Assembly (NCBI RefSeq): GCF_000381065.1
Contig: NZ_KB905840.1
Coordinates: 1-64,000 of the forward strand
Origin: Propionispira raffinosivorans DSM 20765
GTDB taxonomy: Bacteria; Bacillota; Negativicutes; Selenomonadales; Selenomonadaceae
Reading direction: 5' to 3'
Length of the DNA: 64,000 bases
Made by a program: the position numbers and the translations under genes. The notes under the pieces were generated by a model that did no database searches, was not told the origin of the DNA, and saw only the letters and a list, made by a program, of their open reading frames with translations. Shown here piece after piece: positions 2,742 through 20,255 of this stretch; position 1 is the first letter of the stretch; each line of letters begins with the position of its first letter.

Positions 2742-5300
2742 ATGTTTAAATTTAAAGTGAATGGAACGTCAGTTACAGCCGATAAAGAGCAAAATTTATT
2801 GACCTATCTGAGAGATGAGTTACGAGTGACATCGGTAAAGGATGGGTGTAGTGAAGGAGCCTGCGGAACTTGTACGGTTCTGATTGATGGCAAAAAAATT
2901 AAAGCCTGTATCCCTAAACTTTCTTCCCTTGTTGGCAAATCGATTGTTACAGTTGAAGGTCTTTCCCTAAGGGAAAAAGAAGTCTACGTGCATTGTTTTG
3001 CTCAGGCAGGGGCGGTACAGTGCGGGTATTGTATTCCAGGCATGGTGATTTCGGCAAAGAGCCTGCTCGATGTAAATCTAAATCCGACTCGGCTAGAGGT
3101 AAAAAAGGCAATTCGTGGCAATCTTTGCCGCTGTACCGGTTATGTTAAAATCGAAGAAGCTATTTTGCAGGCAGCAGATTTTTTTCGTGAGGATTTGCCA
3201 ATTCCGCAGCGTGAGACGCAGGCACTTCTTAATACTCGTTTTAAAAGAGTGGATGCAGAAGAAAAAATATTGGGAACGGGACAGTTTGTTGATGATTTGA
3301 TTTTGCCGGATATGATTTATGCGAAGGCATTACGCTCAAAATATCCCCGGGCGGTTGTCAATCGGATTGATTTGTCGAAAGCTTTGGCGCATCCAGATTG
3401 TATAAGAATTTTAACGGAAAAAGATGTACCGAATAAAAAAATTGGTCATCTGGTTACGGATTGGGATGTGATGATTGCAGAGGGGGGAACGACACGCTAT
3501 ATTGGCGATGCCTTAGCCTTGGTTGCTACACAGCACAAAGAAACGCTCGATGAAGTCCTAGCCTTAATTGAAGTTGATTATACCGAGTTAGTACCGATCA
3601 CCTGTCCGACAGATGCTCTGAAAGCATCGGCACCGCTTATCCATGAGCAGGGCAATATTATGCGCAAAGAAGTCCTCAAACGCGGCAATGCTGATGCGGC
3701 GATTAAAAATTCAAAGTATGTTGTGACACGTAAATACAGTACGCCGTTTAATGATCATGCATTTATGGAGCCGGAGTGTGCAATTGCATTACCAGAAGGG
3801 GAGGATGGACTCTTACTTTATACAGGGTCACAATCCGTTTATGATGAACGCCATGAAATTTCGCATATGTTAGCGATTCCAGAAGAAAAAATACATTGCC
3901 ATTCGATGCTCGTTGGGGGCGGATTTTGCGGCAAAGAAGATATGAGTGTGCAGCATCATGCCGCATTGATGGCTTGGTATACGAAAAAACCGGTGAAAGT
4001 GAAGTTTTCGCGACAGGAAAGTTTAAATTATCATACCAAACGTCATGCAATGGAAATGGAATTTACGACAGCCTGTGATGAACAGGGAATTCTTACGGCA
4101 ATGAAAGCGATTTTGATTGCGGATACGGGTGCCTATGCATCGTTGGGTGGTCCAGTACTCCAACGCGCCTGTACCCATGCGGCTGGTCCTTATAATTATC
4201 AAAATATAGATATTTTAGGGATGTCGGTTTATACGAATAATGTAATTGGTGGAGCTTATCGCGGTTTTGGCGTAACCCAAAGTTGTTTTGCCACGGAAAA
4301 TAATATCAACCTTTTAGCTGAAATGGCAGGACTTTCTCCTTGGGAAATGCGTTATAAAAATGCAATCCGTCCGGGGCAGGTTTTGCCAAATGGACAGATC
4401 GCAGATCCAAATTGTGCGATTGTGGAATGTTTAGAGGCAGTTAAGGCTGTTTACGAAGCGAATCCTTATGCGGGAATTGCTTGCGCTTTTAAAAACAGTG
4501 GGACTGGTGTGGGACTTAAGGATATTGGACGCTGCCTGCTCTCGATTGAAAAGGGACTTGTTCACATTCGAACTTCGGCAGCTTGTATGGGGCAGGGGAT
4601 TGCGACAATGTGTACGCATATGGTATGCCAGGAAACTGGTTTAGATCCAGCTCTGATCGTGCATGAACGTCCCGATACCAACAGAACACCCAATTCAGGA
4701 ACTAGTACAGCCTCCAGGCAGACAGTCGTGACGGGTGAAGCTACACGCCGTGCCGCGCAAAAGCTTAAAGCAGCTTTGGCTGGTGGCAAGAGTGTAGCAG
4801 ATTTAAACGGACAGGAATTTTATGATGAATTTTCTGCGATTACCGACCCGATGGGGTCACCAAAGGATTTTCCGGTCAGTCATGTAAGTTATAGCTACGG
4901 GGCACAGGTGGTCATTTTAGATTCACAGGGAAAAGTTGAAAAAGTAGTTGCAGCATATGATGTCGGAACACCAGTCAATATTCAATCGGTTGAAGGTCAG
5001 ATTGAGGGCGGAATCATAATGGGTCTGGGATTTGCTCTTACCGAGGATTTTCCGGTTCAAGGTGGATATCCACTGTTGAAATTTGGGACACTCGGATTGA
5101 TGCGGGCAACGGAGGCACCGCCGGTTGAAGTTCATCTGGTACAAGCGCCAGGTGAAAAACTTCCTTATGCATTTGGAGCCAAAGGTGTTGGCGAACTTTG
5201 TCTCATTCCGACCTCGCCAGCCTGCTCTCATGCGTATTATCGCTACGATGGGAAATTCAGGACGTCTCTACCGCTGAGAGAAACCTATTATAAAAAATAA
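2742..5300 (+). CDS. Fused Fe-S/molybdopterin hydroxylase, xanthine dehydrogenase type
   Basis: 852 residues combining, in order, a plant-type 2Fe-2S domain (C36, C41, C44, C56), a second 2Fe-2S helical domain (C94, C97, C129, C131) and, from about residue 165, the two-part molybdopterin catalytic region (VGGGFCGKE near 390, AYRGFG near 508, and the proton-accepting Glu in GAKGVGELCLIP near the C-terminus). There is no FAD domain. This single-chain arrangement is that of Desulfovibrio aldehyde oxidoreductase and of the so-called selenium-dependent xanthine dehydrogenase family; the latter seems more likely by length. Substrate is undetermined (purine or aldehyde). The start has GAAGGAG upstream. 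Confidence 0.85.
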   Translation: MFKFKVNGTSVTADKEQNLLTYLRDELRVTSVKDGCSEGACGTCTVLIDGKKIKACIPKLSSLVGKSIVTVEGLSLREKEVYVHCFAQAGAVQCGYCIPGMVISAKSLLDVNLNPTRLEVKKAIRGNLCRCTGYVKIEEAILQAADFFREDLPIPQRETQALLNTRFKRVDAEEKILGTGQFVDDLILPDMIYAKALRSKYPRAVVNRIDLSKALAHPDCIRILTEKDVPNKKIGHLVTDWDVMIAEGGTTRYIGDALALVATQHKETLDEVLALIEVDYTELVPITCPTDALKASAPLIHEQGNIMRKEVLKRGNADAAIKNSKYVVTRKYSTPFNDHAFMEPECAIALPEGEDGLLLYTGSQSVYDERHEISHMLAIPEEKIHCHSMLVGGGFCGKEDMSVQHHAALMAWYTKKPVKVKFSRQESLNYHTKRHAMEMEFTTACDEQGILTAMKAILIADTGAYASLGGPVLQRACTHAAGPYNYQNIDILGMSVYTNNVIGGAYRGFGVTQSCFATENNINLLAEMAGLSPWEMRYKNAIRPGQVLPNGQIADPNCAIVECLEAVKAVYEANPYAGIACAFKNSGTGVGLKDIGRCLLSIEKGLVHIRTSAACMGQGIATMCTHMVCQETGLDPALIVHERPDTNRTPNSGTSTASRQTVVTGEATRRAAQKLKAALAGGKSVADLNGQEFYDEFSAITDPMGSPKDFPVSHVSYSYGAQVVILDSQGKVEKVVAAYDVGTPVNIQSVEGQIEGGIIMGLGFALTEDFPVQGGYPLLKFGTLGLMRATEAPPVEVHLVQAPGEKLPYAFGAKGVGELCLIPTSPACSHAYYRYDGKFRTSLPLRETYYKK

Positions 5301-18863: not shown

Positions 18864-18971
18864 TTGACTCTCTATCTTTTTTGGTATATGTTATATGTAA
18901 ATCCAAAATTAAATATAGGTACAAAGAGGTATCAATTGACCGTTTTTCAATTCGGTTGGTTGATTTTTTTT
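18864..18971 (+). promoter_or_regulatory. Promoter followed at once by an intrinsic terminator, anf leader
   Basis: TTGACT (18864-18869), 17-bp spacer, TATGTT (18887-18892). Transcription should begin near 18899. A 12-bp hairpin (18931-18942 with 18953-18964, including wobbles) then runs into seven T. The anfH start is about 450 bases further on with no gene between, so this terminator lies in the putative nitrogenase leader. It either ends a small RNA or must be bypassed to express the operon. Confidence 0.6.
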
Positions 18972-19000
18972 ATTTTATTTTGACAATTGAATAAAATTGT

Positions 19001-19088
19001 TTCATGGATACCACGAATATCCAGGGAACTTTGCCAGCTTTATCGTTTTTCTATCCCAGTGGTGCTAGGTCTATTAACTTTACCCATT
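19001..19088 (+). ncRNA. Pseudoknot-capable leader element, copy 1
   Basis: First of two copies of an unrecognised element upstream of anfH. Block A (19001-19023) holds a hairpin TGGATA-CCACGAA-TATCCA. A variable 31-base middle follows. Block B (19055-19088) begins CCCAGTGGT and ends TTTACCCATT. The loop ACCAC can pair with GTGGT of block B, giving a pseudoknot. Both blocks are shared with copy 2 (block A 23/23 identical; block B 31/34), but they fall in different reading frames in the two copies, so conservation is not for a peptide. RNA aptamer or DNA site cannot be decided from one genome. Confidence 0.55.
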
Positions 19089-19196
19089 TTTATATTCAAG
19101 ACGCTAGCTATTGTTCGATAAAGGCAAACTCATTTGATTTTAAGAGTATATCGCAAGGAGGTGGTCAAACGAATAAAATTCGAAAAAATAAAAAGC

Positions 19197-19277
19197 TTCA
19201 TGGATACCACGAATATCCATGAAGCGCAGGCAAATCTTTTATTCCCAGTGGTACTAGGTCTATTTAATTTACCCATT
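19197..19277 (+). ncRNA. Pseudoknot-capable leader element, copy 2
   Basis: Second copy, 196 bp after copy 1 and about 150 bp before anfH. Here the block A hairpin is extended to 11 bp (CTTCATGGATA with TATCCATGAAG) around the same CCACGAA loop. The middle is 24 bases, and block B spans 19244-19277. The loop-to-block-B pairing (ACCAC/GTGGT) is retained. The remaining leader to 19427 shows only a short ACAAA/TTTGT hairpin with a T tract near 19368-19386 and the anfH ribosome site. Confidence 0.55.
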
Positions 19278-19415
19278 CTCGATTATAACAGGTTGATTTT
19301 CTTTTTTCAAGAACAATGTAAAAAGAGGCGGGCGGATTTTGGCAATCGTGGGAGCAGCACTTTTTATACAAAGAGTTTGTTTTTTTAGCAATGGATAAAA
19401 AGTATGTAAATATGA

Positions 19416-20255
<840 letters not shown>

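Follow-up and report, generated by a model that had tools for sequence, protein, structure and literature searches.

We find that the repeated element upstream of the Fe-only nitrogenase (anf) operon of Propionispira raffinosivorans very probably contains, in the copy proximal to the operon, a small-RNA gene on the minus strand, which has a consensus sigma-70 promoter and an intrinsic terminator and is transcribed away from anfH. The best explanation of the whole, to which we give a probability of roughly 0.8 from sequence evidence, is a small-RNA gene whose product would act in antisense or in trans on nitrogenase leaders. As judged from the genomes compared, the same predicted small RNA and promoter precede nitrogenase operons in most nitrogen-fixing members of the class. 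To our knowledge, the control of nitrogenase in anaerobic Negativicutes has been little studied, and our search of the open-licence literature found no earlier report of this nitrogenase-leader small RNA. With its conservation, its near-invariant promoter, and its place opposite almost all nitrogenase operons of the class, such a small RNA would be a concrete and testable candidate regulator. The window is the whole stretch of DNA that was analyzed (64,000 nt; NZ_KB905840.1, positions 1 to 64,000), and its relevant features are as follows:

18864..18892, plus strand: likely promoter of the anf operon, TTGACT-17-TATGTT, read from the sequence
18918..18981, plus strand: ANTAR-like hexaloop hairpin, GGUAC-AAAGAG-GUAUC, overlapping an intrinsic terminator
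18990..19088, plus strand: distal copy of the element (second block and hairpin), a candidate binding site in the anf leader by its complementarity to the small RNA
19186..19277, minus strand: predicted small-RNA gene (proximal copy), ~90 nt; covariance model R1, 110 bits; fold z −5.5
19195..19225, minus strand: intrinsic terminator hairpin of the small RNA, containing the hairpin block of the sequence-only reading
19228..19274, minus strand: 5' domain of the small RNA, two stacked helices, from fold and covariation
19282..19310, minus strand: promoter of the small RNA, −35 TTGAAA at 19310-19305, N17, −10 TATAAT at 19287-19282
19428..20255, plus strand: anfH, the first gene of the anf operon (NCBIfam TIGR01287, 465 bits); the small RNA lies opposite the leader of this operon

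The sequence-only reading had described a two-copy element at this place, and both of its blocks are confirmed. The 23-nt hairpin block is identical in the two copies (19001-19023 and 19197-19219), and the 34/35-nt second block has three mismatches (19054-19088 vs. 19243-19277). The reported spacing of 196 bp holds from start to start of the hairpin blocks (196 nt) but not for the second blocks, which lie 189 nt apart. Shuffled sequences gave 0 matches to either block pattern, which places the repeats far beyond chance, and a genome search found no further close copy of the repeats in the window genome. The proposed tie to a Fe-only nitrogenase operon also stands, with anfH, AnfD, AnfG, and AnfK downstream; the gene order is anfH, two PII-like genes, anfD, anfG, and anfK. 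The blocks had been said to fall in different reading frames, which is true in part, although the hairpin-block ATG of copy 2 shares its frame with the second block. They are indeed not conserved as peptide, since frames shift between relatives and stops occur. A coding reading, in which the second block encodes FPVALGLFNLP in one frame, was rejected on the nonsynonymous changes, frame shifts, and stops found in relatives.

The proximal copy has the signals of a transcription unit directed away from anfH. The plus-strand sequence beyond each proximal copy is ATTATAAC...TTTCAAG or a near variant of it, which corresponds on the minus strand to a sigma-70 promoter, TTGAAA-N17-TATAAT/TATACT, that ends 8-10 nt ahead of a conserved GGT. 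All 19 proximal anf-type copies scored have this promoter at 10 or more of the 12 consensus positions, compared with 0 of 12 distal copies, and the 22 nif-type/anfD copies scored all carry the same promoter or a near variant. The promoter region lies outside the covariance model. At the other end, a GC-closed hairpin is followed by the U-run UUUUUAUUU (19194-19186, minus strand; an A-run on the plus strand), as in an intrinsic terminator. The small RNA is predicted to start near 19275-19277 and to end in the U-run near 19187. Only the proximal copy has the promoter, so the two copies are not equivalent.

Folding and covariation point to the same strand. The small RNA of the window folds at −34.8 kcal/mol (z −5.5) on the minus strand. 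Its 5' domain consists of a closing helix (GGGUAAAUU/GAUUUGCCU), an internal loop with AAAUA, and an inner hairpin (CCUAGU-ACC-ACUGGG); alone, it folds at −15.2 kcal/mol (z −3.6) on the minus strand vs. −3.8 kcal/mol (z +1.25) on the plus strand. The covariance-model search that the sequence-only reading had proposed returned matches that are nearly all opposite nifH/anfH leaders. Among 47 matches, 91.9% of cells are paired, compared with ~40% for slid partners, and 23 of 27 pairs show double changes, counts that lean towards structure because the alignment was fitted to it. The terminator hairpin contributes 12 pairs (98.8% of cells paired; double changes at 10 pairs). Its arms vary between copies and species with the pairing kept, and the loop CCACGAA and its variants are retained. 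The earlier claim of a structured, conserved RNA of no known family is thus borne out by covariation over the 47 matches and by the lack of an Rfam match: against all 4227 families, nothing in the window reached the gathering score (best subthreshold hit, 28.6 vs. 49 bits).

These data bear on two other explanations of the repeats. The first is the riboswitch that had been suggested, or another sensor RNA of the sense leader that uses a pseudoknot between ACCAC of the hairpin loop and GTGGT of the second block. Tandem hairpins do lie within the leader, with a plus-strand promoter and terminator upstream, and both pentamers are present in both window copies, where the pseudoknot could form. However, it is not conserved, because the second block of relatives often has GTGGC or GTGAC, and because the terminator loop is inverted in Pelosinus (genus g35; 6/6 genomes carrying AnfG). 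The 5' domain has no plus-strand fold, the element's own promoter and terminator lie on the minus strand, and at covarying pairs the wobble falls on that strand too (126 G·U vs. 27 A·C cells, minus strand read). A sense-leader sensor is thus very improbable, and a plus-strand hairpin with a consensus loop was itself rejected on the inverted loops of the six genomes. The second explanation, offered earlier as the alternative, is that the repeats are DNA palindromes bound by a protein as operator or activator sites. It would suit a near-perfect inverted repeat whose loop orientation is flexible across genera. Its arms nevertheless change freely and stay paired, even between copies in one genome, a freedom that a sequence-reading protein would not allow, which leaves this explanation with very little probability.

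Across genera, the terminator loop occurs in both orientations (e.g., TACCGCAAATA and TATTTGCGGTA). A template-switch mutation can invert a loop without touching its stems (PMC8794818), and two-way loops are as expected from such inversion. Strand-specific wobble pairs and loop inversions together make the locus a clean example of how a small-RNA gene can be told from a riboswitch.

The predicted small RNA is widespread in the class and closely associated with nitrogenase. When the proximal copy was used as the query, anf operons in other families of the class proved to have the element upstream, and at 24 loci around AnfG or AnfG-like matches the proximal copy is present almost everywhere and the distal copy often. 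Propionispira arboris (locus L083) is a close relative of the window genome. Of 380 genomes of the class, 48 matched a covariance model built from six copies, and 54 matched a broader model. Nitrogenase is present in 52 of these 54 genomes, compared with 9 of the other 326 (Fisher P = 5e-52; genomes of one class are related and the counts are not independent). With few exceptions, the matches are found opposite a nifH or anfH leader. At all 21 nifH loci measured, the RNA is on the opposite strand, 53-137 nt upstream of nifH, and matches without anf are mostly opposite the nifH leader with the same promoter. A sensor specific to molybdenum is unlikely, because most of these genomes have the same RNA in front of nif operons, which encode Mo-nitrogenase.

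No RNA match was found in nine nitrogenase-bearing genomes of the class. The window genome's own nif operon (contig C9, near 73764) has a hexaloop/terminator leader at nifH and no small-RNA copy. Outside the class, only the anf operon of Clostridium intestinale matched among 16 genomes tested; Desulfosporosinus and the other anf carriers searched gave no match. Three promoter-bearing copies have no adjoining nitrogenase (neighboring genes named by eye from their translations):

L229, 4001-4092, plus strand: copy opposite the start of an oxalate/formate-type transporter gene
L237, 642-729, plus strand: copy opposite focA
L230, near 4001-4088, minus strand: copy between a gene for a small secreted protein and an ACT/homoserine dehydrogenase pair

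The distal copy of the window is promoterless (best −35/−10 score, 8/12), has a weak U-run, and shows no significant fold on either strand; a second small-RNA gene at this position was rejected on these grounds. Relative to the proximal copy in each genome, distal copies show 52 differences that keep plus-strand pairing through G·U vs. 17 of the mirror kind. The predicted duplex between distal copy and small RNA is stronger than its mirrored control in 12 of 12 genomes from about nine lineages (in the window, −55.6 vs. −51.2 kcal/mol). In genome G045, with promoters on both copies, the duplex is not stronger than the mirrored control. Because G·U pairs preserve the complementarity of its plus strand to the small RNA, the distal copy may be a binding site for the small RNA in the anf leader. 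The bias could instead reflect base composition or sense-strand structure.

Further upstream, the anf leader carries plus-strand elements of its own. The likely anf promoter is kept as TTGACT-17-TATWNT in most relatives, and it is followed by a terminator (hairpin, 18931-18963; T-run, 18964-18981). ANTAR targets follow a hexaloop rule of A1 and G4, and other bacteria are reported to have such sites ahead of their nitrogenase genes (PMC3369931, Ramesh et al. 2012). At 18918-18981, we find what defines the P2 hairpin of such a target, an A1 and G4 hexaloop overlapping the terminator. The hexaloop is AAAGAG in the window and AAAGGG, AACGGG, or similar in most relatives, with G1 in one; just upstream of this hairpin, inspection by eye gave no clear common P1 hexaloop hairpin. 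The window genome encodes two ANTAR proteins. Leaders of similar make-up, with promoter and hexaloop, also stand before the nif operons of relatives and of the window genome itself (contig C9). Both kinds of leader resemble ANTAR-controlled leaders in carrying a hexaloop hairpin that overlaps a terminator. The ANTAR-like element is, however, a separate plus-strand feature, whereas the small RNA is encoded farther downstream, on the minus strand, and lacks the A1/G4 hexaloop pair.

Cis-encoded antisense RNAs of mRNA leaders are transcribed from a gene on the opposite strand, over the 5' leader, with a promoter and terminator of their own. The predicted small RNA is alike in its own promoter and terminator and in its position opposite the 5' leader of the neighboring gene. 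It goes beyond this general kind in its class-wide structured body, in the target-like promoterless copy of anf operons, and in its copies outside the host operon. Several genomes leave little room between the small-RNA promoter and nifH or anfH, so transcription of the operon would usually have to pass over the small-RNA gene. We propose that anfH is transcribed from the upstream plus-strand promoter, across this gene; as there is little room for another promoter, the anf mRNA would overlap the small RNA in antisense. The small RNA would then base-pair with the nitrogenase leader at the overlap and, in anf operons, with the promoterless distal copy, a course that we consider the most likely one, at about even odds. 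Such pairing may alter transcription elongation, RNase III processing, or translation, in a repressing or a stabilizing direction, and the small RNA might set a threshold on leaky nitrogenase expression.

The structured, conserved body of the small RNA and its copies outside nif and anf operons suggest that it is also free-acting, and, given the copies elsewhere, a broader role in trans is possible. A further explanation, which we consider less probable than leader pairing, is that the small RNA is trans-acting or protein-binding, with its targets or partner elsewhere. Its overlap with the leader would then be incidental, and its location would couple its expression to nitrogen status. A structured and conserved body exceeds the needs of pure antisense, and copies with the same promoter occur by formate/oxalate transport genes and at one further site, both of which accord with this explanation; but the only above-chance near-complementary sites in the window genome are in the anf leader, and the distal copy has kept its complementarity. 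The pairing of the small RNA with leaders can be extended, tentatively, to a class-wide family that is common to Mo and Fe-only nitrogenase operons, occurs at formate-transport genes too, and binds nitrogenase leaders, with the duplicated anf distal copy retained as a second site. If this is true, the nif, anf, and formate systems could be connected by a single small RNA.

Small RNAs tied to nitrogenase have been described in other prokaryotes. NfiS and NfiR of Pseudomonas stutzeri A1501 are reported to stabilize nifK/nifD mRNAs (PMC9170634). Compared by description, they share with the present RNA the connection to nitrogenase; as described, they differ from the present RNA, whose gene lies opposite the nitrogenase operon's own leader. 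sRNA154 of Methanosarcina mazei affects nifH mRNA (PMC9170634) and is, again by description only, alike in this connection, but it is archaeal and has several targets.

Between the two copies, a near-perfect ribosome-binding sequence, AAGGAGGTGG (19155-19164, plus strand), is kept in most relatives. It often precedes AUA or AUC, not AUG, at the proper distance, and several genomes have a short frame that opens with it and ends in the hairpin arm. A short conserved frame (like CKAELISLxxEKExxxxExLIDGFL) lies between the small-RNA promoter and the anf operon in five genomes (G047, G306, G310, G295, and G053).
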